A stretch of 32,724 bases of DNA, from the NCBI GenBank assembly GCA_017858255.1, contig JAFMBV010000034.1, forward strand, positions 1 to 32,724. The letters run 5' to 3'. The notes beneath the pieces are model-generated. The model made no database searches. It was given only the letters and a program-made list of their open reading frames with translations, and was not told the origin of the DNA. Positions 7,016-32,300 of the stretch are shown in pieces (position 1 is the first letter of the stretch; each line of letters begins with the position of its first letter). The position numbers and the translations under genes are program-made. This DNA comes from Bacteriovoracaceae bacterium (GTDB lineage: Bacteria; Bdellovibrionota; Bacteriovoracia; Bacteriovoracales; Bacteriovoracaceae).

Positions 7016-7978
7016 TCAACAGGCCTTCTGAATAAAGCCTAGGTTTCTAGCAGGCGAGTCTTTAAGGGTGTTTTTTCTTTTATTATAGGCCTCTGTGGTT
7101 TTAACAGAAGAGTGCCCAACATCTTTTGAAACTTTTAATAAATCAGCACCACCCTCAAGACTAGAGCCTATGTAAGTTGCCCTCGCAGAGTGTGGGGAAA
7201 CTCTTTTATTGATTCCTGCGAGCTTACAGTATTTTTTAAAAATGTAATCGATGGAACTTGGAACAAGTGGACGATCAAGATTATTTGGATTTCTTGGGTT
7301 AACACTTGGTTGAAAGAGCCAGTCATTAGGGTCTACTTCTCTGTTGAGTTTTTTCATGTCGATTAAGTAATCAACGATTACTTCAAAACATTCTGGAAGT
7401 AGAAACTTTAAAAGCTGTTTGCCTCCCTTTGCTCTAATTGAGATGGTCATTTCACCATTGATCTCTTGAAGGTCAGAGAGTTTAATCTCAATTAACTCTG
7501 ACTTTCTTATGCCCGTGGTAAAAAAGGTCATTAGAATTGCTCTGTGAAGGGGAGTCGCTTTTTCAGAGATAACCTCAAAGAGCCTCATCACTTCTTCATC
7601 AGTTAAATCAAGTGTCTCAGACTTCGCGACTTGCTTAGGTCGCTTAACGCCATCAGCGGGATTAAAATCTAAAAATCCTGCTTCCATTAAGAATTGAAAG
7701 TAACTTGATAGGGAGCTTAATTTTCTATTGATGGTCTTAGGGGAGAACTCTGAATTTATCAGGTAAGTCTTATAGGCCACTATATGAAAGCGCACACAGT
7801 CTTTTACTGAATTAAGTTTTAACTCTGCTTTAAAGAATCTAAGGAAAAAAATGATGTCTCTTTTGTAGGCCTTTTTGGTATGCACTGATTCAAAGTTATT
7901 GAGAAACTCAAATTCAAGCTCACTTGATTTTTTGCCAAACTTTGTAGTTATCTGATTAGCGGTTACTAGGGTAGTCAT
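7016..7978 (-). CDS. Tyrosine recombinase/integrase (XerC/D type)
   Basis: This 320-residue protein has an N-terminal SAM-like core-binding domain (about 20-105) and a C-terminal catalytic domain. The full active-site set is visible: Arg158 in TTGIRKSEL, Lys184 in IRAKGGKQ, His263 and Arg266 in SPHSARATY, His289 in VGHSSVKTT, and the nucleophile Tyr298 in EAYNKR. It is therefore probably active. The family cuts and rejoins DNA at core sites of two inverted arms around a 6-8 base spacer; such a site lies at 8071-8100, 93 bases upstream of the start. It lacks the extra helix region typical of integron integrases. A decayed relative lies at 4400-4515. Whether it serves an integrative element or a house-keeping role cannot be told, but the context suggests the former. 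Confidence 0.9.
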   Translation of the reverse strand: MTTLVTANQITTKFGKKSSELEFEFLNNFESVHTKKAYKRDIIFFLRFFKAELKLNSVKDCVRFHIVAYKTYLINSEFSPKTINRKLSSLSSYFQFLMEAGFLDFNPADGVKRPKQVAKSETLDLTDEEVMRLFEVISEKATPLHRAILMTFFTTGIRKSELIEIKLSDLQEINGEMTISIRAKGGKQLLKFLLPECFEVIVDYLIDMKKLNREVDPNDWLFQPSVNPRNPNNLDRPLVPSSIDYIFKKYCKLAGINKRVSPHSARATYIGSSLEGGADLLKVSKDVGHSSVKTTEAYNKRKNTLKDSPARNLGFIQKAC

Positions 7979-8070
7979 AGAAAAGTCTCTCTATTATTGG
8001 GTATAACTTTCTATCGGAACCAAGAGAAAATCCTTTAATTAAAAGACCTTAGAAATTTTAAAAGGGGAGT

Positions 8071-8100
8071 TATAAGGGATAACAGTTATTATCCCTTATA
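8071..8100. repeat. Perfect 12-bp inverted repeat with 6-bp spacer, candidate recombinase core site
   Basis: The left arm TATAAGGGATAA (8071-8082) and its exact reverse complement (8089-8100) flank the spacer CAGTTA. The inner ends, ATAA and TTAT, around a 6-base spacer reproduce the geometry of Xer/dif-type crossover sites. A further copy of nine arm bases (TATCCCTTA) sits at 8253-8261. A protein operator or a weak hairpin is the alternative. Confidence 0.5.
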
Positions 8101-8109
8101 GAAAAATAC

Positions 8110-8133
8110 TGTGGCGACAGATTTGTCGCTACA
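8110..8133. repeat. Hairpin, 10-bp stem with 4-base loop
   Basis: TGTGGCGACA and TGTCGCTACA form a 10-bp stem with a single G-T position around GATT, just ten bases beyond the palindrome. No U-tract follows on either strand, so a classical terminator is unlikely. It may belong to the same recombination or regulatory region. Confidence 0.4.
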
Positions 8134-8277
8134 TTGATCATGAAGCACATTATAATCAGCGAACGCCTTTCTAGTAAGGGCATTTGAACGAGTGGAGAAA
8201 ACTTAACCAATTTTTTCTGAATTAATTTTGGTTAATGGCCGATGATAGAACATATCCCTTAATTAAAGGAATCTTCT

Positions 8278-8553
8278 ATGAACGTAGTACGTTGGGCGCT
8301 TCTCTTTGTTCTATCCTCAGCTTCCGCTTTAGGCGCTTGTCCTGAGGTTCCTTCTTCCCCTTATGAATGTAAAGGAAGGGTTCTTGTCTCTAATAAAGAG
8401 GAACTTCAAAGCTATCTTTCTGATTTTGGTTTAAATAGTAATAAGACCTATATAAGGGCCGCCCACCTAACAGGAGCGTTTGTTGATCAGTCTGAGAAAC
8501 CATTCGTGATAGCAACTTCTGGAAGCAGTTTCCAAACTCAACCTGGCACCTAA
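8278..8553 (+). CDS. Small secreted Cys-containing protein, possibly truncated
   Basis: This 91-residue protein begins with a signal peptide (MNVVRWALLFVLSSASALGA) and has two Cys early in the mature chain (ACPEV and YECKG). The ATG follows AAAGGA with good spacing. The family is unknown. The last six residues (FQTQPG plus T) are encoded by an 18-base repeat that recurs at 9561-9578. If the DNA between the copies were removed, the frame would continue for about 20 more codons, adding two Cys, up to a stop near 9640, antisense to the end of the neighbouring gene. So the C-terminus may have been replaced by insertion, although chance read-through is possible. Confidence 0.6.
   Translation: MNVVRWALLFVLSSASALGACPEVPSSPYECKGRVLVSNKEELQSYLSDFGLNSNKTYIRAAHLTGAFVDQSEKPFVIATSGSSFQTQPGT
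8532..8549 (+). repeat. 18-bp direct repeat, copy 1
   Basis: CCAAACTCAACCTGGCAC occurs here and again at 9561-9578, bracketing the nucleotidyltransferase/RHH pair. A shorter echo, TGGCACCTA, occurs at 8544 and 8576. The arrangement is that of attachment-site or target duplications around a cassette of about 1.03 kb. Confidence 0.6.
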
Positions 8554-8599
8554 TGGCTCTTGTTTTTATATTATTTGGCACCTATGCTTATTAGCATCA

Positions 8600-8806
8600 T
8601 TAGCTGTTACGATTTAAGTACTCTTGCATGAGTTCTTTTATCTTTGAGGTATAGGGTCTTTTTTCAAGCTCGCACTTTAGTTTAAAAGCATTTAAGAGGG
8701 CAGGATCAATCTTGATTGATATCAGTTTGGTTTTTTCAACTTTTCTTGCCTTATTTAACTCTCTCATGGCCTCGAGCCATTCGATTTGTTTGGTTGCATC
8801 TTTCAT
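8600..8806 (-). CDS. Ribbon-helix-helix (CopG-like) DNA-binding protein, putative antitoxin
   Basis: This 68-residue protein ends in an RHH-type fold: the strand TKLISIKIDPALLNAF followed by two helices (KLKCELEKRPYTSK and IKELMQEYL). The N-terminal 25 residues are charged and helical and could contact a partner. Its ATG overlaps the stop of the upstream nucleotidyltransferase gene by four bases (ATGA), so the two are translationally coupled. RHH repressors bind palindromes as dimers; a perfect 26-bp palindrome covers the promoter of this operon, implying autoregulation. An antitoxin role is inferred from the gene pair. Confidence 0.65.
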   Translation of the reverse strand: MKDATKQIEWLEAMRELNKARKVEKTKLISIKIDPALLNAFKLKCELEKRPYTSKIKELMQEYLNRNS

Positions 8807-17385: not shown

Positions 17386-18030
17386 ATGAAATCATCTTTA
17401 TTATTTGCTATTACTTTCCTTTTCTTTGCTTCAGGCACACTGCAGGCAAAGAAATATAGAATTACCCTGGAGAGCAATTGGAATCAGCAAGATCATCTTG
17501 CAACACCACAAAATGCTCACTTCTCACCTGTCTTGGCGGTGTCGCATGATCAAGAATATAGTTTGTTTCAACAAGGTGGTCTCTCTACTCCTGGCCTAGA
17601 GGATTTATCAGAACTTGGAAGAACGGCCATCTTAAAAGTCGAACTCGCAGACGCCAGTAGACTAAACCAGATCGGCGAAATCATTGAAACTAAAAATATG
17701 TTTATTAGAAATCAGACGAGTCAAACTTTTGAAGTCGAGATCACTCCAGAGCACCCTTACCTCTCATTCGCCTCTATGATAGCTCCAAGCCCAGACTGGT
17801 TTGTGGGTTTGAATGCTTTAAAACTATTCAGTAAAGAAACTGGTTTTTTTAGTGGCACTCAAAGACCTATTGATCTCATGGCGATAGATGCGGGTACAGA
17901 ACGGGGAGATGTCGGCGGCAACTTCTCAATCAACAATCAGGCCAACACAACCCATGAGCCTATCTCTACCCTTCTTGGGGATGGATTTCATGCTCCATTT
18001 GCAAGAGTGAGCATCGAAGTTCTTGAGTAG
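17386..18030 (+). CDS. Secreted spondin-domain protein
   Basis: The product has a signal peptide (MKSSLLFAITFLFFASGTLQA, cleavage before KKY) and then one domain matching the F-spondin N-terminal fold (Spond_N). It has the early RITLESNW strand, SPVLAVSHDQEYSLFQ with the conserved His, GLEDLSELGR, SFASMIAPSPDWFVG and the late IDAGTERG calcium/structural segment. In animals the domain is extracellular and adhesive; bacterial versions are exported with no established function. The length (214) is one domain only. AAGGAG lies six bases before the ATG. Monocistronic, convergent with the next gene at a 9-base distance. Confidence 0.85.
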   Translation: MKSSLLFAITFLFFASGTLQAKKYRITLESNWNQQDHLATPQNAHFSPVLAVSHDQEYSLFQQGGLSTPGLEDLSELGRTAILKVELADASRLNQIGEIIETKNMFIRNQTSQTFEVEITPEHPYLSFASMIAPSPDWFVGLNALKLFSKETGFFSGTQRPIDLMAIDAGTERGDVGGNFSINNQANTTHEPISTLLGDGFHAPFARVSIEVLE

Positions 18031-19525: not shown

Positions 19526-21229
19526 GTGAGGACAGCATTTTTTATTCTTTCCATTATGACTACATGTTGGAATTCAACATGGGCCGAGAACACACTTGGA
19601 ACCTTAAATAGTGTTCAAAATGGGTTTGGAAATATTGAAGAGTGCAAACAAACGGCTGAGAATATTTCAAGCTGCGGACTGGCAGCAATTGACGATACTT
19701 TAGGTGGCCTCCTAGACTTGACCACAATGAATCAATGTATTGCTTCTACTGAAAGCTATCAAAGTAGTGGCGTAGAAGTTCCCGATTGTCCAAATACCGA
19801 TGATGGCGTTAAGGGGCTTGACCACTCTTTTCCTAGTGGTGCACTCTTTGGACTCTATAGTGGTAACAACTCAGCTTTTCTCACTGACATCATTACAAAC
19901 TATTTTTCAGATAATCCCAGTGGAAAGTTTAATGTTGTCCTACCTAGAGACTTAATTGATGTCCTAAAAGGCGATCAGGCTTTGATCGGCTTACTTAATA
20001 ACCCGAGAATTAATATTGTGGATGTTGCCACAACCCCGAGTGTTGATAGATGGATGCAGGATTCTTTTGAATTCATGACTCTCGATGGAAAGCCTGCTCT
20101 TTATCAACTAGAGCACCAAAGAGAATTTGAAACAAACTATAAAGATCGCTTGGCCTGTCAAATCGCTAAAAGTTGCGATATCCCCTACCTTGTTCCTCCC
20201 GATATGGTGGACCCTTTAAATGCGGATAATAATAGTCTTAATAGTGGTGGGAATTTAGAAACAATGCCAGGCGGTACTATTTATAGAGGAATCTTAAAGA
20301 CACCCGGGTATGGCGAAAATGGAGGTTTTCCCAGTAGAACTTTTCCAGTTGAAACTTCTGCTCAAAGAAGGCAGCGGACAGCTCTTGAAGCGGCCGGTAA
20401 TAAAGTATTAGATCTGGATACATCTTTTCTTAGAGTAGGTCATGTCGATGAAATTATAAATATAGTGAAAACTAATAGACCTGCCCCATGTAACTTTGCC
20501 GTTATGCTTGCGAGTCCTGAGAAAGCTTTTGAGCTTATGGAAGCTCAGGTCACTAGTGAGTTTGCTCCAGCAGAAAGTCTGCGACCAGTCCCTAGGCCCT
20601 CATCAAGTTCAGTAAAACCGACAATACTCGAAATGATCTTTCTATCAAAAGCACATGCTGGTGCTATTGCCTTAAACTTAGATGCTACTCCTGAAGATCA
20701 TCGTTGCATGGAAGTTAGTTATGCTAGCTTACAAAGAGAATATGCCAATAGACGAATAAGTGAATCTGAAATTAACGACATATACTCTAGAAACTGCATC
20801 GATAGTCAAAGTGTTGAAAGTTTTGTGAAAAGTGATGAGTTTAAAATCCTCAAGAGAATCAACTTAGAGGAGGGTCCTGAAGATAGTATTCCCATATCCC
20901 AGATCATGGAAAATAATAAAAGGGAACTATTAGCGGAACTCTCTCAAACCTCTGGCTGTAGTGATCCCCCAGTTATTGATGTGCCTGTATTTTTTAGAGA
21001 TGGTCTGTCCTATGCCCCCGACCTGGTCAATGGAGTTGTTCATCCTAACAATAGTGGCAGCTCTACCATCATTATGCCTAGAACCTATTTTAAACCTTTT
21101 GATGATTATGTAGAAGAAGAATTGGCGGCCGTCGGCGTTACGGGGAAATTCGCTCATGACATGGGCTATCACCTTTTATGGGGTCAGGTACACTGTGGAA
21201 CAAATACAGCAAGGGTATGTAGACAATGA
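19526..21229 (+). CDS. Secreted protein-arginine deiminase, animal type
   Basis: The enzyme would convert peptidyl-arginine to citrulline outside the cytoplasm. A signal peptide (residues 1-20, ending STWA) precedes a domain like the PAD catalytic C-terminus. Active-site residues match human PAD4: Asp179 in DRWMQDSFEF (WMQD, Asp350), His306 and Asp308 in RVGHVDEI (His471/Asp473) and Cys557 in GQVHCGTN (Cys645). The two Ig-like N-terminal PAD domains are missing. Between His306 and Cys557 there are about 80 more residues than in PAD4, including a Pro/Ser-rich stretch (347-363). Translation starts at GTG with AGAGG upstream; a nearby ATG is out of frame. Its stop overlaps the next ATG. This is not the Porphyromonas-type deiminase. 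Confidence 0.88.
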   Translation: MRTAFFILSIMTTCWNSTWAENTLGTLNSVQNGFGNIEECKQTAENISSCGLAAIDDTLGGLLDLTTMNQCIASTESYQSSGVEVPDCPNTDDGVKGLDHSFPSGALFGLYSGNNSAFLTDIITNYFSDNPSGKFNVVLPRDLIDVLKGDQALIGLLNNPRINIVDVATTPSVDRWMQDSFEFMTLDGKPALYQLEHQREFETNYKDRLACQIAKSCDIPYLVPPDMVDPLNADNNSLNSGGNLETMPGGTIYRGILKTPGYGENGGFPSRTFPVETSAQRRQRTALEAAGNKVLDLDTSFLRVGHVDEIINIVKTNRPAPCNFAVMLASPEKAFELMEAQVTSEFAPAESLRPVPRPSSSSVKPTILEMIFLSKAHAGAIALNLDATPEDHRCMEVSYASLQREYANRRISESEINDIYSRNCIDSQSVESFVKSDEFKILKRINLEEGPEDSIPISQIMENNKRELLAELSQTSGCSDPPVIDVPVFFRDGLSYAPDLVNGVVHPNNSGSSTIIMPRTYFKPFDDYVEEELAAVGVTGKFAHDMGYHLLWGQVHCGTNTARVCRQ

Positions 21230-22552: not shown

Positions 22553-23215
22553 CTACTGAGGATAGGCGGCCTCAACTTCTTGGGCAACGAGAGAGCTTAA
22601 GGCCTGAAAGCTATAGTCTCCAGGCTTCTTACCATTCACAAAGAAGGTGGGGGTTCCACGAATTCCCAATGTCTTTAAGTCGGCCATGTCCTGCTCGATA
22701 ATCTTGGCGATACCCTCATCTAGCATATCGGTCTTTAATTTTTCCACGTCTATACCGACTCTAGGAAGAAAATCGAAGATTAAATCAATCTGAGGATTAT
22801 GATGACTTCCCCATTGAGGCTGAGTTTCAAAGAGGAGACCCAAAGCCTCCCAATACCTTTCCTGCTTCTTAGCGGCTTCAACGGCAGCAATAGCAGTTTT
22901 TGAGTTTCCATGAAAGGCCGCATAACGGACAATAAGCTGAACCTTACCATTGTATTTAGATAAAAGGTCTTTAACTAATGGATAGGACTGACGACAGCTT
23001 TCACACTCTGGATCTAAGAACTCGACAAGATAGACTCTCGCATCTGGATTTCCAAGTCGAGGAGAATGCTCTCGCACAAATGTTTTAGCATTATTTTGGG
23101 CCATAAAAGAAATTTTTTCTTTTTGTGAGTCTTTATAAAACTTTATCCCTAATAGAAAACATCCAAGAAGAAGGGCACCAACACCAACAAAGAGGTAGGT
23201 TTTATTATTTTTCAT
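22553..23215 (-). CDS. Membrane-anchored DsbA/BdbD-like thiol-disulfide oxidoreductase
   Basis: The 220-residue product has an N-terminal membrane anchor (TYLFVGVGALLLGCFLLGI) and a periplasmic thioredoxin-fold domain with the active site CESC (Cys71-Cys74) in FLDPECESCRQSYP and the cis-Pro loop GIRGTPTFFVNG. It introduces or shuffles disulfides in exported proteins. The ATG at 23215 overlaps the end of the DsbB-like gene by 11 bases. A longer frame start 13 codons upstream lies wholly inside that gene and is unlikely. The pair is a classical oxidase/reoxidase operon. Confidence 0.92.
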   Translation of the reverse strand: MKNNKTYLFVGVGALLLGCFLLGIKFYKDSQKEKISFMAQNNAKTFVREHSPRLGNPDARVYLVEFLDPECESCRQSYPLVKDLLSKYNGKVQLIVRYAAFHGNSKTAIAAVEAAKKQERYWEALGLLFETQPQWGSHHNPQIDLIFDFLPRVGIDVEKLKTDMLDEGIAKIIEQDMADLKTLGIRGTPTFFVNGKKPGDYSFQALSSLVAQEVEAAYPQ

Positions 23216-23630
23216 CGACTGTCGTCCTTTTAAAGTAAATGAGTAGTATACCAATCATTGTAAAAGCTAAGAGAGAAAGTATGGGGATGGTTATAAAGCC
23301 AAACCATTCAATATAAACTGTGGAGCAGGAAACTCCTTCCAAGCAAGGAGAAGCGCTTTCGGGTACGATCTCATAATGAAGAAGGTTATGGTAAAAAGCG
23401 ATTATCCAGCCAATCAAAACCAAGGGCGCACTAAAGAGAAAGGTCGACTCTGGTGCCTTGAGTGCACCAACAAGTAAGATGATAACCAAAGGATACATCG
23501 CGATTCGTTGGTACCAACAAAGTACGCAGGGAGTAAACTCCATCACTTGGCTAAAGAATAGGCTACCAAGAGTCGCAACTGTAGCAATAATCCAACTTGT
23601 AAAGAGAAGAGAGAAGGAAGAGTTTTTCAT
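23205..23630 (-). CDS. dsbB: DsbB/BdbC-like quinone-linked disulfide oxidoreductase
   Basis: The 141-residue inner-membrane protein has four or five hydrophobic segments, the first periplasmic Cys pair CVLC (Cys35-Cys38) in PCVLCWYQR and a second pair at Cys96 and Cys102 (PCLEGVSC). It reoxidises the DsbA-like partner encoded just downstream and passes electrons to quinone. The short size is of the BdbC type. It overlaps the partner gene by 11 bases. Many exported proteins in this window contain paired Cys, giving the system clear local clients. Confidence 0.93.
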   Translation of the reverse strand: MKNSSFSLLFTSWIIATVATLGSLFFSQVMEFTPCVLCWYQRIAMYPLVIILLVGALKAPESTFLFSAPLVLIGWIIAFYHNLLHYEIVPESASPCLEGVSCSTVYIEWFGFITIPILSLLAFTMIGILLIYFKRTTVDEK

Positions 23631-24979: not shown

Positions 24980-27166
24980 TTACAGGCCATCCATATCTTT
25001 GATGGCCTTTTTTACGTCACTATAAACAGGTAGCCATGGACGAAAGGCGTTTTTTACGACCATCTTGTCACCAGGAAAAACTTTTCTTTTACCGTAGAAA
25101 CGATCTTTAAATTCAGGAAAATGTCTAATAATTACATCTGCCATATTTTGTTTCTGAACGTGCTTGATACCACCTTTAGTGTAGTATTCAGCAGTATAGT
25201 AATCAGAAAAGAATGGATCTGCCATAAGTCTTCTTGATGCCATTAGGGCAAAAATATAGAAGGGAGTATTTCCAAAAGCAAATCCTGGATAGCGATCAGC
25301 TTCTGCAAGTGTTCCTATCAAAAGATCCATGGACTCAATGTCATCTTGATAAATCTCTTTTAAGACCTTCACGTCATCTTTGTTTGGCGTAAGTTCTTCA
25401 AATGATCTAATCGCTGGTAAATTAAGCGCTCTACGGAAATCATTGTACTTTGGCACTCCTCTTTCACGATCACGAAAGATATCTACAGCGCCCATGTCCA
25501 TTTTTATGGAATCTCCATGGCCTTTACCAGTATTTCTTTCAGCGACAAAATTCTTCATCCAAGTTGGGTAGTTATGAAGAGTCATCGCTCCAGGAAATGA
25601 AGTACCAAAAGAGTTCAACCATGTGGCGGAACCGTGCTTTGTAAACGTGTCTTTGGCCTGACGAAAGATCATTTCACGAGTCGAAACTTTTCCTGTCACT
25701 TTATTAGTCTTGTCATTTCTTACGTTAACGAAATCGGGTACAAGAGGATGCATTCTATAAACGGCCACAAACTCTTCTGTTAAAGTGAAAGGCACCGAGT
25801 AGAGATCAAGAGTCTTTTTTCCCACAAGTCCTGAGATCAAGTGTTTGATACCACCATCTACTTTTCCTCTCAGGGCCGGTAGGCTGATGCCAGAGACTTC
25901 CTTCATCCCATACCAGTTACTTCTCATACCAATTTGAAGCATTTCATTGTCAAGAAGTGCCGGAGTCCATTCAGACGTATGAATTTTGGCCATCAACGCT
26001 GATGTAATCATTCGTGCCTTTTCGAAAAGGACATCATTACATTCTGATTTAGAAAATCTCTTTCCTTTTGCAGGCACACAAATTTCTTTTCCTATTCTAG
26101 GCTTTAAAATATTGTCAACGATACTGTTGTGCTCAAGATGGAAAAGCGTGTGGATTAACTCGAGACCAACCCACCAATTGTCGTGAAATCCAGTAATAGG
26201 AAGACCATCTTTTCCATAAACCAAACGGCGGTTCTTTGCATCTACTGCGATTTTACCATCAGGAAGGAGACGGCCCGTAGGTACTCCTTTTGAGTTGTAT
26301 TCACTTCTTACTTTTTTAATGGTTTCAGGGTCACTTCCGTAAATCTGTGAAGCATCCCACCAGTGAGTCACTCTATTTCTAAAAGTTTTATCATAGCCAT
26401 GACTTTCTAAAGACTTTTCTTTGTTTGATTCTGTTTGGGTAGCAGGAATTTTCATGCCACCTTTAAAGTGTTCGTGAGACTTATGAGCATCGATATTGTA
26501 GGACTTGCTTTTTGAATTCTTGCCGTGAGTAAACCAGTCATGATTCATGGCCTGAAGCCAAGCAGTCGCTAAAACGTTAATAACAGGAGCATCAACTTGT
26601 TTACCATTCCTAGAGAGAAGCTTTTCACTGATCTCTAATGGACTTGGTGTCATGAGGTCCTGTTTCGAAGTTTCCGCAATTGTATCTGGGTTAATATTAC
26701 GACCAAATCTTTGATGAACAGCACCCATTCTTAATTGATTGGTGAGATTCTTATCTTTATCACTTAGGTGTTCAGGGTTTTTATGAAAGTAACAATCTCC
26801 ATAAGCACTACGGTGAACACGTTTCATGACTTTATCGCAGTCGATATTTTCATTTGGACTAACACCTGTATCAAAGAGGTTCTCTTCAAGGAGCTCTTGT
26901 CTCCTGCCAGAGAGCTCAAGCGAGTATTTAAGATTACTCTTTGAACCGACAGCACCTACAAATTTTAATTTATTCTTCTTACCGGTGTAACCGTCATAGC
27001 CGAACTTTGACCAATCTTTACCTCGGTGTTCCCAATAATCTTGATCGGCCTGCTCTTTTGTACGAGGATCTTTTTCAGAAGATAGCTCTCTTTTAATATT
27101 CTTATTGCCGGTACATGATGCCAATACTAAGACCAGTATCAATAGTAAGTTGTCCACTTTATACAC
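24980..27166 (-). CDS. Lipoprotein animal-type heme peroxidase, alpha-dioxygenase/COX-like
   Basis: The 728-residue product starts at GTG (GGAGG five bases upstream) with a lipoprotein signal (LLLILVLVLASC, Cys18). The distal heme pocket reads AWLQAMNHDWF (Gln205, His209), matching the HDW of plant alpha-dioxygenases. RVTHWWDASQIYGSD is the conserved substrate-arch segment. LELIHTLFHLEHN is the family helix. EEFVAVYRMHPLVPD gives the Tyr470-x-x-His473 pair equivalent to the radical Tyr and proximal heme His of COX and alpha-dioxygenase. Family knowledge thus predicts oxygenation of fatty acids to hydroperoxides in the envelope; plain peroxidase activity is the alternative. Divergent lipoprotein and catalase-like genes sit upstream. 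Confidence 0.85.
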   Translation of the reverse strand: MYKVDNLLLILVLVLASCTGNKNIKRELSSEKDPRTKEQADQDYWEHRGKDWSKFGYDGYTGKKNKLKFVGAVGSKSNLKYSLELSGRRQELLEENLFDTGVSPNENIDCDKVMKRVHRSAYGDCYFHKNPEHLSDKDKNLTNQLRMGAVHQRFGRNINPDTIAETSKQDLMTPSPLEISEKLLSRNGKQVDAPVINVLATAWLQAMNHDWFTHGKNSKSKSYNIDAHKSHEHFKGGMKIPATQTESNKEKSLESHGYDKTFRNRVTHWWDASQIYGSDPETIKKVRSEYNSKGVPTGRLLPDGKIAVDAKNRRLVYGKDGLPITGFHDNWWVGLELIHTLFHLEHNSIVDNILKPRIGKEICVPAKGKRFSKSECNDVLFEKARMITSALMAKIHTSEWTPALLDNEMLQIGMRSNWYGMKEVSGISLPALRGKVDGGIKHLISGLVGKKTLDLYSVPFTLTEEFVAVYRMHPLVPDFVNVRNDKTNKVTGKVSTREMIFRQAKDTFTKHGSATWLNSFGTSFPGAMTLHNYPTWMKNFVAERNTGKGHGDSIKMDMGAVDIFRDRERGVPKYNDFRRALNLPAIRSFEELTPNKDDVKVLKEIYQDDIESMDLLIGTLAEADRYPGFAFGNTPFYIFALMASRRLMADPFFSDYYTAEYYTKGGIKHVQKQNMADVIIRHFPEFKDRFYGKRKVFPGDKMVVKNAFRPWLPVYSDVKKAIKDMDGL

Positions 27167-27361
27167 AAGTGCCTCCAGTTGAGGGTTAAATCCTCTAAAA
27201 GAATAACATGTAGAGAGATTTTGGTTAATCGTGTAAATAATGCTTTATTTTTGCCGTATCCCAGTAACTGAGTAATTTGATGGGGCAAAAATTGGCGCAT
27301 ACCATTCAGCTTTTTAACGTGAGAATATAAAGATGTTTTAATTTTATCAGAGGGCTTCATT

Positions 27362-28396
27362 ATGAAATCACTTTTATTCTTCTTTTCTCTTTTAATCCTT
27401 GGTTCCTGTTCGACTGTAAATGAATGGCGAAGGCCGGCCAGCTTTGGTAGGGATTTAACGGGATCATACCTCGGAGTCGCTGACTATAAGTTTGCTCATA
27501 AGGGGCCAAATAATGCAGCTTCTCGATTATATCTACATGAAATAGAAGGTGAAAAAGGAAGCTATTACGCTCTCATCCATGAATATGTAAATCTCCTTAA
27601 TATGTTCCCTGAATATGTGGCCGCAGCTAAGGCGCCAGCGATTAATAAAATTATTGGTTATTTAAAAGACATCACGAGTAAAATTGAGGTCTACAAAATG
27701 ACACCAACAGCGATTGAGGGTGAGTTTCACTTCTACCCTATTAAGGTAGATGGAGAGAAACTTGTTGTAGTATCAACAGATAAGCCTCGTCATCTTAAGC
27801 TGAAGAAGGGTTCAGATCTGGAACATCCACTAGAAGGTGCAATTATCACGTCTAATGGAGGAAAGGGACAACCTAAGGAAATCTTCTTTCCAGAAGACAA
27901 CGATAAAAAATATAATGGTATCCAGTACACAATCGCTAGCTTCGTTTATAAAAAGATTGGTTTAGACTCTACATGGAGAAAGAGCTTTCTTCCTGGACCT
28001 TACCTATCTGCTTATGGTCGCCTTAACGATGTCGTCCTAGATCTGAAAAACGAAGGTAATCAAAATATAAGCACCTTTAAAATTAATCCCGCAATGGCAA
28101 AAAAATCTAAAAGGTCGAGAGGGAGAATGTTTACAAATAAAAAGAGTGCCTTCCTTGAAGGTACCTATGAGACGATAGAGCCGGCAGAAGGTATGTTTCT
28201 TTTTAAACCAATTAAAAGTAATAAGAAGACAAATAGCGAATTATCCTCACGTATAGGTTTATTTATCGACATTTTTGATGCAACAAAGGCGTTGAATCAA
28301 GATGTTGTTGAGTTAGTACTTGTTGATCCAGAACATCCAGAAGACTTCTTAATGTATTACGAACATCCCGAAAATGGTGAAGGTGAAACTAAGTAG
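27362..28396 (+). CDS. Lipoprotein of unknown function
   Basis: The signal MKSLLFFFSLLILGSC has a lipobox with Cys16, followed by STVNEW. The remaining 328 residues are soluble, mixed alpha/beta, with lysine-rich stretches (KKSKRSRGRMFTNKK) and no motif known to me. GAGGG lies eight bases before the ATG. It is divergent from the heme peroxidase, 195 bases apart, and 25 bases ahead of the catalase-like gene, with which it is probably co-transcribed. The position suggests a role in the same pathway, perhaps as a partner or anchor, but this is inference. Confidence 0.65.
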   Translation: MKSLLFFFSLLILGSCSTVNEWRRPASFGRDLTGSYLGVADYKFAHKGPNNAASRLYLHEIEGEKGSYYALIHEYVNLLNMFPEYVAAAKAPAINKIIGYLKDITSKIEVYKMTPTAIEGEFHFYPIKVDGEKLVVVSTDKPRHLKLKKGSDLEHPLEGAIITSNGGKGQPKEIFFPEDNDKKYNGIQYTIASFVYKKIGLDSTWRKSFLPGPYLSAYGRLNDVVLDLKNEGNQNISTFKINPAMAKKSKRSRGRMFTNKKSAFLEGTYETIEPAEGMFLFKPIKSNKKTNSELSSRIGLFIDIFDATKALNQDVVELVLVDPEHPEDFLMYYEHPENGEGETK

Positions 28397-28421
28397 TCAT
28401 ATTAAATAAAAGAGGATCAAC

Positions 28422-29375
28422 ATGAAGTTTCTTACTATAGTTTTGTTAGCATTTGTTTACTCTGGTGTTAGCTCTGCCGGTTTTTCATTATCATCAAATT
28501 ATCAAAACCTTAGTGGTTGTGAAAAGCAAAGTATTCTATGGGAAGAGGTTGAAAAGACTCAGCATTCTGCTTTACCCGAATATCATAAATTTGGCGCCCT
28601 TCAACTTTTGGGCATGACTGTTCAAGAAATGACCAAGAAGAAATCCTTGAATTCTGATGTGGCTCCAAAGAAATGGAAGAAGTTTTTACACCGTAGAGGA
28701 TCAGTAGCTAAGGTTAAAATTATTCCAACAGAGAGTAGCTCTTATACGGGAGTATTTTCTGGTGCAGAATGTGCATTGATGAGATTAAGCATTACTTATC
28801 GTCCAACTAAGAAAAGAAAATTTGCACCAGGTCTAGCTCTTAAAGTTTTAAGGAATGGGGTTCCAAGTGCAAATGTTTCTGCGCTCTATCGCCTTGATGG
28901 CCAAGAAGATAATTACAATTTCTTTGAAAACCCACTCTCAAATATTGTGCCTATCGGTCGCGACATTGGACTTAAACTGGTTCATGGCATCTTTAAGCGG
29001 GTCACAGATTACCCAGAAGAATTGCTCATGACCCACTTTGGTGATCTTAATGCCCAAGGAGAAAAGGTCTCCTCTCCAAGAGCTCCACGTCAGGTATTTT
29101 TTGTGCCAAACCCTAAGCTAGAGGGCAGCTCAGATAAGCATGATGTAAGAGAAGACTTTCACAAAATTCCTGCTGGCACTCTGCTCTATAGTATTTATGC
29201 TGTTGCGCAGAAGCATTCAAAGTTCAATTACTACGATTATGAAGACGAGAATGCAGAAGCGTTCTTAAAGGACTCAGTGAAAATCGCTGATGTTATTACG
29301 ACCTCCCCTTTCTTGTCCTCTGAATTTGGTGATACTGGTATCTTCTTTCGCCACGAAGTACGTCCCAAAAAGTAA
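28422..29375 (+). CDS. Secreted catalase-fold heme protein (y4iL/allene-oxide-synthase-like)
   Basis: A signal peptide (ending VSSA, residue about 19) precedes a domain with the catalase core pattern. FLHRRGSVAKVKI resembles the distal VHARG segment with His90. TGVFSGAECALMRLSITY matches the RFS strand, PGLALKVLRNG the RGFALK segment, and DGQEDNYNFFENP the GNNTPVFF segment. The classical catalase proximal R-x-x-x-Y helix is not evident, so heme ligation is uncertain. At 317 residues it is of the small catalase-related class that includes coral allene oxide synthase and bacterial y4iL-like proteins, which act on fatty-acid hydroperoxides or are uncharacterised. Family call from motif memory. 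AGAGGA supports the start. It follows the lipoprotein gene. Confidence 0.55.
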   Translation: MKFLTIVLLAFVYSGVSSAGFSLSSNYQNLSGCEKQSILWEEVEKTQHSALPEYHKFGALQLLGMTVQEMTKKKSLNSDVAPKKWKKFLHRRGSVAKVKIIPTESSSYTGVFSGAECALMRLSITYRPTKKRKFAPGLALKVLRNGVPSANVSALYRLDGQEDNYNFFENPLSNIVPIGRDIGLKLVHGIFKRVTDYPEELLMTHFGDLNAQGEKVSSPRAPRQVFFVPNPKLEGSSDKHDVREDFHKIPAGTLLYSIYAVAQKHSKFNYYDYEDENAEAFLKDSVKIADVITTSPFLSSEFGDTGIFFRHEVRPKK

Positions 29376-29447
29376 TTGCCTTGTCTACCACCTTTCTAGC
29401 GACACTCTTATAGTCTAGGCCTATAGTTTATGTTCAATGGAGGAATC

Positions 29448-29969
29448 ATGAAAATTAGAAATGTTATTTTAGCTCTCTTTATGAGTATGGCACATGTATT
29501 TGCTGGAGATCTTTATAGTCTTGAAGTTGTAAAAACAGACGGGGAAAAGCTTAAACTCGCTGATCTTAAGGGCAAAACAGTGCTCTTTGTTAATGTCGCG
29601 ACAAGGTGTGGCTATACTGGTCAGCTTGATGATTTAGAAAAGCTCTACCAAAAATATAAGGCCAAGAACTTTATGATAGTAGGAGTTCCTTCAAATGATT
29701 TTGGTGGTCAAACACCAGAAGGTAATAAAGAGGTCGCCAAATTTTGTCGCCTTAAGTACGGAGTCACCTTTCCTCTAACAACAAAAACACCAGTTATCGG
29801 AAATAAGAAGCCCGAACTTATTAAGCTCCTTCTAAATGGTGGTGGTGATATTGGTTGGAACTTTGAAAAGTTTCTTGTTAACAAAGAGGGAAAGGTTGTT
29901 GGCCGCTTCAAAAGCTCAGTTACTCCTCTTTCAAATGACCTTACTAAAAAAATCGAATCTATTCTTTAG
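29448..29969 (+). CDS. Exported glutathione peroxidase-family protein
   Basis: The 173-residue product has a signal peptide (MKIRNVILALFMSMAHVFA), then a thioredoxin-fold GPx domain. It shows NVATRCGYTGQ with peroxidatic Cys54, PSNDFGGQTPEGN with Gln88, and WNFEKFLV with Trp137 and Asn138, the full catalytic tetrad. The family reduces H2O2 and lipid hydroperoxides using glutathione or thioredoxin; a possible resolving Cys100 suggests thioredoxin-type reduction. Periplasmic export is less usual. The ATG at 29448 follows GGAGGA; an earlier ATG at 29430 would precede it. It lies 72 bases after the catalase-like gene and overlaps the convergent DUF5522 gene by 11 bases. Confidence 0.92.
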   Translation: MKIRNVILALFMSMAHVFAGDLYSLEVVKTDGEKLKLADLKGKTVLFVNVATRCGYTGQLDDLEKLYQKYKAKNFMIVGVPSNDFGGQTPEGNKEVAKFCRLKYGVTFPLTTKTPVIGNKKPELIKLLLNGGGDIGWNFEKFLVNKEGKVVGRFKSSVTPLSNDLTKKIESIL

Positions 29970-31418: not shown

Positions 31419-32300
31419 ATGCCTGTTATAAAAACTCTCGAAGAGTTAAAAAATTATCCTTTTTCTCCATATGACGGACCAAGAAAGGTTCTAATGGTAA
31501 AGCCGGATTACTACAATGTTACCTACAAGATTAATCCGCATATGGTTGATGGGGAAGGGCAATTACCTATAATTGACGAAAAGCGGGCGCTTTTTCAGTG
31601 GGAAAAACTAAAGGCCAAAATAGAAGAGTTGGGTCTGAAGGTTTTCGTCATTCCAGGTCAAGAAGGTTTTCCTGACATGGTTTTTGCAGCGAATCAATCA
31701 CTGTCAGTCGATTCAAGACATATTATTTTAAGCAAGATGACCCATGAAGAGAGAAAGGGCGAAGTCCCCTTCTTTGAAGACTTCTTTGAAAATCACGGCA
31801 TTGAGGCCAAGCATTTGCCAGACGAAGTTGAGCAGTTTGAAGGGACAGGAGATGCTCTTTGGCACTTTGGAATGGATCTTCTTTGGTGTGGCCATGGATT
31901 TCGTACAGACCTAAAAGCAGTTGAGCACTTAGGTGATACTCTGGGTCTTGCAGTAGTTCCTTTAAAACTTATTGATGAAAATTTTTATCACCTTGATACC
32001 TGTATGTGCATTCTCGACAGTAAAACTGTCGTATGGACACCAAAGGCATTTAGCGAAGAGTCTCAGGAGATCATAGACAGCTTCTTTCCTGTCACCATCG
32101 AAGTTCCTTACGAAGAGGCCAAAGAAACTCTCGCCTGCAACAGCTGGAGCGTTGATGGGCATAACGTACTTATTCCACAGGGAACTCTTACTCTAAAAGA
32201 GAAACTTGAAAATCATAATTTTACTGTTCATGAGCTTGATACGAGTGAGTTTAAAAAGGCTGGAGGCTCAATTTTTTGTATGAAATTGGCCTTTTCCTAA
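31419..32300 (+). CDS. Dimethylargininase/amidinotransferase-family enzyme
   Basis: The 293-residue product has the guanidino-modifying fold: PDMVFAANQSL (85-95), the acidic EGTGDALW (141-148), His191 in YHLDTCMC and the nucleophile Cys287 in GGSIFCMKL near the C-terminus. Such enzymes hydrolyse dimethylarginine to citrulline or act on arginine/ornithine. Substrate specificity cannot be read off, but the length and motifs fit DDAH-like proteins. GAGG is five bases before the ATG. No signal, so cytoplasmic. It overlaps the convergent FliL-like gene by four bases. With the arginine deiminase at 19526 it is the second member of this superfamily here. Confidence 0.85.
   Translation: MPVIKTLEELKNYPFSPYDGPRKVLMVKPDYYNVTYKINPHMVDGEGQLPIIDEKRALFQWEKLKAKIEELGLKVFVIPGQEGFPDMVFAANQSLSVDSRHIILSKMTHEERKGEVPFFEDFFENHGIEAKHLPDEVEQFEGTGDALWHFGMDLLWCGHGFRTDLKAVEHLGDTLGLAVVPLKLIDENFYHLDTCMCILDSKTVVWTPKAFSEESQEIIDSFFPVTIEVPYEEAKETLACNSWSVDGHNVLIPQGTLTLKEKLENHNFTVHELDTSEFKKAGGSIFCMKLAFS

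Follow-up and report, generated by a model that had tools for sequence, protein, structure and literature searches.

In the coral lipoxygenase fusions typified by allene oxide synthase (AOS) and catalase-related hydroperoxide lyase (cHPL), a catalase-fold domain is joined to a fatty-acid dioxygenase. The haem iron of catalases and of coral AOS (cAOS) is held by a Tyr in the helix that follows the barrel, and the residues described for cAOS are Arg64, Arg102 and Arg360, the distal His67, Thr66 and Asn137, and the proximal Tyr353 (PMC5617202). Nostoc punctiforme has a 10S-dioxygenase (10S-DOX) with a catalase-related hydroperoxide lyase (Brash et al. 2014, cited in PMC13049297), and in fungal DOX–P450 fusions the hydroperoxide made by the dioxygenase is processed by the haem enzyme joined to it (PMC13049297). 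Alpha-dioxygenases (alpha-DOX) form a 2R-hydroperoxy acid that loses CO2 to give the C(n-1) aldehyde, together with some 2-hydroxy acid; the word catalase is absent from the survey of the bacterial enzymes (PMC8720084). Here we describe a gene set in a 32,724-nucleotide stretch of contig JAFMBV010000034.1 from a Bacteriovoracaceae bacterium (the window), in which a predicted alpha-dioxygenase, DOX, is tied to a lipoprotein, LP, and to a catalase-fold protein, CAT, that has no proximal Tyr; DOX and CAT probably act on the same fatty-acid hydroperoxide.

The original prediction, made from the sequence, had proposed an envelope hydroperoxide cluster of four exported or lipid-anchored proteins. 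All four open reading frames (ORFs) are present:

24980-27166, minus strand: DOX, a predicted lipid-anchored fatty-acid alpha-dioxygenase of the An_peroxidase family (728 aa)
27167-27361: divergent intergenic region of 195 bases between DOX and LP-CAT
27362-28396, plus strand: LP, a lipoprotein outside described families (344 aa)
28422-29375, plus strand: CAT, an exported protein with a predicted catalase fold, without the proximal Tyr helix (317 aa)
29430-29969, plus strand: GPx, an exported glutathione-peroxidase-family protein, a neighbour outside the conserved unit (179 aa)

The 195-base region is presumed to be a shared control region for the divergent genes. The 25-base gap between LP and CAT is as first read, and the 72-base gap given between CAT and GPx applies if GPx starts at its internal Met (29448), the distance otherwise being 54 bases. 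Direct reading bears out export or lipid anchoring, with lipoboxes in DOX (LASC before T) and LP (LGSC before S) and Sec-type signals in CAT and GPx.

By every sequence test applied, DOX is an alpha-dioxygenase. It belongs to the Pfam family An_peroxidase (E = 8.7e-85) and scores 301 bits against Arabidopsis alpha-DOX (4hhr) versus 35 bits against COX-2; its closest solved relatives are the Arabidopsis and rice enzymes, and the homology to the plant proteins extends over the whole length. In a midpoint-rooted tree of 64 proteins, for which the tool issued a long-branch warning, a long branch with full support separates the CAT-linked bacterial DOX and plant alpha-DOX, which fall together, from the cyanobacterial COX-like type. 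Membership of the COX/alpha-DOX clade, a point on which the original prediction had offered to be refuted, thus came out in its favour. The Tyr-x-x-His and HDW motifs that it had read are likewise there, as YRMH (Y470 and H473) and HDW (H209), and are invariant among relatives; the resulting signature of distal His209, radical Tyr470 and proximal His473 is kept in 54 of 54 bacterial members. In addition, H396, T401 and R645/R646 align with the carboxylate-binding His, Thr and Arg of plant alpha-DOX, which in AtDOX1 we take to be His318, Thr323 and Arg566. These residues are kept across the 54 bacterial members, with one alignment gap at the Arg pair, and are lacking from the aligned COX-like cyanobacterial DOX. 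Because the signature residues are complete, DOX would be expected to oxygenate fatty acids.

The partner protein is recognizable by its predicted structure. Neither LP nor CAT matched any family in Pfam or NCBIfam. For CAT, single-sequence and profile searches of Pfam, NCBIfam and PDB sequences returned no catalase, PF00199 was not matched in Pfam at E values up to 1, and the divergent CAT members found no catalase at E values up to 10, which ruled CAT out as a catalase at the sequence level. An AlphaFold2 model built from 45 sequences had a predicted local distance difference test score (pLDDT) of 91.2 and a predicted template modelling score (pTM) of 0.89. Among 350,542 chains searched with this model, the best Foldseek hit was 3e4w, a catalase-related protein of M. 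avium (E = 6.6e-4), the next was coral allene oxide synthase (E = 3.9e-3), and unrelated proteins started at E = 0.18; the top 50 rows from VIA-align were all catalase-fold (Z of 9.4-10.6, 187-211 residues aligned, root-mean-square deviation of 3.6-6.9 Å). By structure prediction, then, CAT has the catalase fold, without a detectable sequence relation to it, and this second point set in advance as a possible refutation also went the way of the original prediction.

Conservation within CAT is concentrated on residues of a distal type. Lys87, His90, Arg121, Ser123, Phe168, Arg243 and His311 are invariant in the 45 sequences, which span three phyla, and Asn151 is kept in 44 of them, with Asp in the remaining one. 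Lys87-x-x-His90 and Arg121-x-Ser123 form two motifs which, like Asn151 and Phe168, belong to the early strands, and K87, H90, R121 and N151 are put at strands 93-102, 115-124 and 150-155 of the model. We infer that these four distal-type residues correspond to the catalase haem pocket, the equivalences being drawn from order, spacing and strand position rather than from residue-level superposition. The chain stops at F-(R/K)-His311, just past the final strand of the barrel. In the 45-sequence alignment there is no proximal Tyr or RxxxY helix, and the final 118 residues include no conserved Tyr; RxxxY occurs in three of the sequences, upstream of the last strand, by chance. We hypothesize that His311 is a candidate replacement for the proximal Tyr as haem ligand. 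Placement of CAT in the allene-oxide-synthase class, as first proposed, therefore holds for the fold, with coral AOS second in Foldseek, but the missing proximal Tyr helix means that it is no plain member.

The AlphaFold2 model of LP is fairly confident, beta-rich and unmatched; its N-terminal half is a beta-barrel that weakly resembles lipocalins and nitrophorins. The matches to the lipocalin barrel were weak (nitrophorin rows at Z of 6-7; Foldseek E of 0.03 or worse), and LP was not assigned to the lipocalins on them.

To place these genes in context, we surveyed the window's order (one family) in 129 genomes, many of them metagenome bins, and found DOX in 26, LP in 28 and CAT in 37. LP and CAT are present in all 26 genomes with DOX. 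A close CAT accompanies DOX in 26 of 26 genomes, versus one of the 103 without DOX (Fisher p = 2e-26, a value that ignores shared ancestry), and that sole exception is a genome 73% complete. The spread is patchy within genera, with five of the seven genomes of the window's genus included, and the three genes therefore appear to come and go together. DOX lies near LP or CAT in approximately 20 of its 26 genomes, in divergent, convergent or co-directional arrangements. In a second family, DOX and CAT accompany LP in all eight genomes with a clear LP, and their coordinates are mostly neighbouring. A fusion of LP with DOX is seen at one locus in Pseudobdellovibrionaceae (L155) and, as a single 932-aa frame, in genome G163. 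A frequent fourth member of the unit is a metallo-beta-lactamase-fold gene, found within it in 14 genomes of the window's family and at four second-family loci; the window genome has a relative at another location.

GPx does not share this distribution. It matches GSHPx in Pfam (E = 1.1e-29), and the full tetrad claimed for it is legible as Cys, Gln, Trp and Asn. However, it adjoins the other genes only in the window genome (G000) and its closest relative (G031), and on this synteny we dropped it from the unit in which the original prediction had included it. The conserved gene order anticipated for relatives was thus borne out as a conserved set of DOX, LP and CAT, but not in its order or strand, which are shuffled, nor in the inclusion of GPx.

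Several further observations concern these loci. Distant CAT paralogues of greater length (432-451 aa) occur in genomes G120 and G121 (L119 and L120), which have no DOX. A decaying unit is found around 7864-8800 of one locus (L105, genome G028), with an LP fragment carrying a stop, a CAT with several stops, and DOX absent. In three genomes of genera g27 and g37 (L099, L100 and L101), a peptidase M19 (membrane dipeptidase) gene closely follows CAT.

A species-wide search with a profile built from the closer CAT members found CAT in Bacteriovoracaceae, Bdellovibrio relatives, Nostoc, Coleofasciculus, other cyanobacteria, Alcanivorax and Marinobacter. DOX lies directly 5' of CAT in Nostoc and Coleofasciculus, and in Nostoc the pair is followed by genes for a GMC oxidoreductase and a patatin phospholipase. 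At 18 gammaproteobacterial (Alcanivorax/Marinobacter-type) loci, DOX and CAT are a single ORF, 915-955 aa long in 17 of them and 773 aa in the one with a truncated DOX part; CAT is C-terminal in the fusion and begins a few residues past the DOX domain. At three cyanobacterial CAT loci DOX does not adjoin, and each of these genomes encodes a DOX of that type at another site. Among 244 cyanobacteria surveyed, three have an alpha-type DOX and two of these have a close CAT. Judged by gene content, DOX, LP and CAT are one conserved unit, with the fusions, the occurrence in a second family and the presence in other phyla as independent support. Upstream of DOX-CAT at the 18 fusion loci (within L174-L195) there is a gene for a LuxR-type ATPase regulator of about 876 aa.

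We favour action of CAT on the DOX hydroperoxide because the catalase-fold partner of DOX is dedicated and sometimes fused, and consider a shared substrate probable. DOX, as judged from its signature residues, would add O2 to C2 of a free fatty acid to give the 2R-hydroperoxide. CAT probably binds haem, with His90, Arg121 and Asn151 as the distal pocket, and would take the 2R-hydroperoxide directly from DOX, ahead of its decarboxylation to the C(n-1) aldehyde. Its first-choice reaction would be reduction or rearrangement to the 2R-hydroxy fatty acid, with LP probably holding lipid or tethering DOX. The envelope location originally proposed would apply to the Bdellovibrionota version, but not clearly beyond it: neither a lipobox nor a clear export signal was seen in the cyanobacterial and gammaproteobacterial (Alcanivorax/Marinobacter) versions.

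The specific 2-hydroxy product is a tentative assignment, appreciably less secure than the shared substrate. It is favoured because decarboxylation needs no enzyme and, as weaker evidence, because an Mpo1-like gene lies near DOX and CAT and because the Nostoc operon includes a GMC oxidoreductase. The Mpo1-like family is named for a 2-hydroxy-palmitate dioxygenase, and GMC oxidoreductases commonly oxidise alcohols. Six genomes have the Mpo1-like gene next to DOX and CAT or in their vicinity: in one genus it separates the two, and in two further genomes it lies nearby. It was dropped as a partner specific to the unit, since 30 of 32 of these genomes carry such a gene in any case. We also set aside 2-hydroxylation of sphingophosphonolipids as the purpose of the pathway; Bacteriovorax stolpii has such lipids, but the literature found does not contain the needed hydroxylation, which leaves the idea as speculation.

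Several observations weigh against this scheme. The near-ubiquity of Mpo1-like genes in these genomes is one. LP and CAT stay together in about six relatives whose DOX is distant from them or on a different contig; DOX can exist without CAT, as in cyanobacterium G454; and the existence of distant CAT paralogues in genomes without DOX indicates that the wider fold family is not everywhere tied to it. Because CAT lacks the proximal Tyr of haem catalases, its binding of haem is putative and it may carry none. Signalling, attack on prey lipids and killing of competitors, the uses first suggested, are conjectural.

Of the other explanations, the one that survives best has CAT as a hydroperoxide lyase or isomerase, like coral cHPL or cAOS, which would turn the 2-hydroperoxide into an aldehyde or another oxylipin, itself the purpose as a signal, a deterrent or a prey-directed agent. 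Where other dioxygenases are known to have a catalase-fold partner, it is a lyase or an allene oxide synthase (PMC5617202 and, for the Nostoc pair, PMC13049297). Both the fusions and the adjacency of DOX and CAT resemble the coral and Nostoc systems. Saturated-acid 2-hydroperoxides, however, have no double bond next to the OOH group, which an allene oxide needs. A lyase would also add little to 2-hydroperoxides that decarboxylate to the aldehyde unaided (PMC8720084), and on balance we consider this reading unlikely.

Somewhat less likely still is a haem-free CAT, whose former catalase barrel would now bind lipid or act as a docking site for DOX. The missing proximal helix and the last 118 residues devoid of a conserved Tyr are what this explanation would predict, but a scaffold would not need the invariance of Lys87, His90, Arg121, Ser123 and Phe168 across three phyla, or Asn151 in 44 of 45 sequences. 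Alternatively, CAT could be a safety or priming partner that removes or meters H2O2, not lipid, around a peroxide-activated DOX. A catalase fold with distal-type residues would suit such a role, and H2O2 reportedly activates alpha-DOX, going by the title of a 2013 study by Zhu et al. On the other hand, the proximal Tyr helix that supports catalase turnover is missing and a 1:1 fusion at the DOX C terminus would be odd for a scavenger, making this role improbable. A cluster for general peroxide defence in the envelope, without a lipid product of its own, is suggested by GPx lying 54-72 bases downstream in the window, but is very improbable given that GPx adjoins the unit in only two genomes, that DOX would generate hydroperoxides, and that two other phyla have DOX-CAT with no GPx.

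For CAT as a processor of the DOX product we put forward, tentatively and with more doubt than certainty, the full proposal: a Tyr-less catalase-fold enzyme, its haem held by His311 or by no protein ligand, that processes 2-hydroperoxy fatty acids made by alpha-DOX and that, with DOX and LP, would constitute an undescribed bacterial alpha-oxidation enzyme, present as one chain in Alcanivorax/Marinobacter. The oxylipin-type pathway of the original prediction is retained to the extent that the alpha-DOX clade, the catalase fold and the conserved DOX/CAT unit are best read as a pathway for fatty-acid hydroperoxides; it is altered in that GPx lies outside and CAT is not an ordinary AOS-class protein.

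If true, this would be a further, separate recruitment of the catalase fold for fatty-acid hydroperoxides, now with the alpha-DOX branch and earlier beside lipoxygenases and a COX-like dioxygenase, and would provide a catalase fold that has lost the ligand by which its haem chemistry is defined. The CAT family, which has no Pfam entry, would gain a function-bearing context; bacterial alpha-DOX, until now investigated as a stand-alone source of aldehydes, would gain a partner; and fatty-acid oxygenation would be put on the envelope of Bdellovibrio-like bacteria. The pairing in these bacteria, in some cyanobacteria and in oil-degrading bacteria points to an unrecognised bacterial pathway that makes or processes fatty-acid peroxides.

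Elsewhere in the window are an exported protein-arginine deiminase-like protein, uncommon in bacteria (19526-21229, plus strand; PF03068, E = 2.5e-16), and a second arginine-modifying fold, a dimethylarginine dimethylaminohydrolase/arginine deiminase-like protein (31419-32300, plus strand; PF19420 and PF02274). The window also encodes an exported Spondin_N-domain protein (17386-18030, plus strand; PF06468, E = 3.4e-33) and an overlapping pair of a DsbA-like thioredoxin and DsbB (22553-23630, minus strand).

Compared with the known plant and cyanobacterial alpha-DOX (AtDOX1, OsDOX, CalDOX and LepDOX), DOX falls in a clade with the plant enzymes and has all the catalytic and carboxylate-binding residues, but the Bdellovibrionota version is lipid-anchored and tied to LP and CAT, and the gammaproteobacterial version is fused to CAT. 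We found no described alpha-DOX/catalase pair and no Alcanivorax alpha-DOX in the open-licence literature, a scope outside which most subscription papers fall. The closest solved fold to CAT, the M. avium subsp. paratuberculosis 33-kDa catalase-related protein (3e4w and 3e4y), is of similar minimal size but only 12% identical, and to our knowledge has no dioxygenase link. The DOX-CAT fusions share with fungal DOX–P450 the union in one chain of a dioxygenase and a known or, for CAT, putative hydroperoxide-processing haem enzyme, there a linoleate DOX with a P450 and here an alpha-DOX with a catalase fold.

The Nostoc 10S-DOX/cHPL system likewise combines a haem dioxygenase of the COX superfamily with a catalase-fold partner. 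Four cyanobacterial loci (L257 and L259-L261), presumed by us to represent this system, encode a COX-like DOX that scores 222 bits against COX-2 and 41 against alpha-DOX, beside a partner of 393-414 aa that matches Pfam catalase and ends in RLRSIVY (RxxxY). At these loci a Tle1-like phospholipase gene (PF09994) often lies upstream, and it is fused to DOX in L260 (932 aa). The CAT profile gave no alignment with this catalase partner (probability 0.1), and orthology between the two was rejected. The window does not have a COX-like DOX beside an RxxxY catalase; its DOX is of the alpha type and its CAT does not align with the RxxxY protein, so the pairing is separate on both sides. The coral AOS- and cHPL-lipoxygenase fusions also hold a catalase-fold domain and a fatty-acid dioxygenase in one chain, but theirs is an N-terminal catalase domain with Tyr353 joined to a lipoxygenase, whereas DOX-CAT has an alpha-DOX and a C-terminal, Tyr-less CAT. 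The pairing of a dioxygenase with a catalase-fold protein is thus already known, and by the sequence comparisons made here an alpha-DOX with a Tyr-less partner is a separate variant of it.

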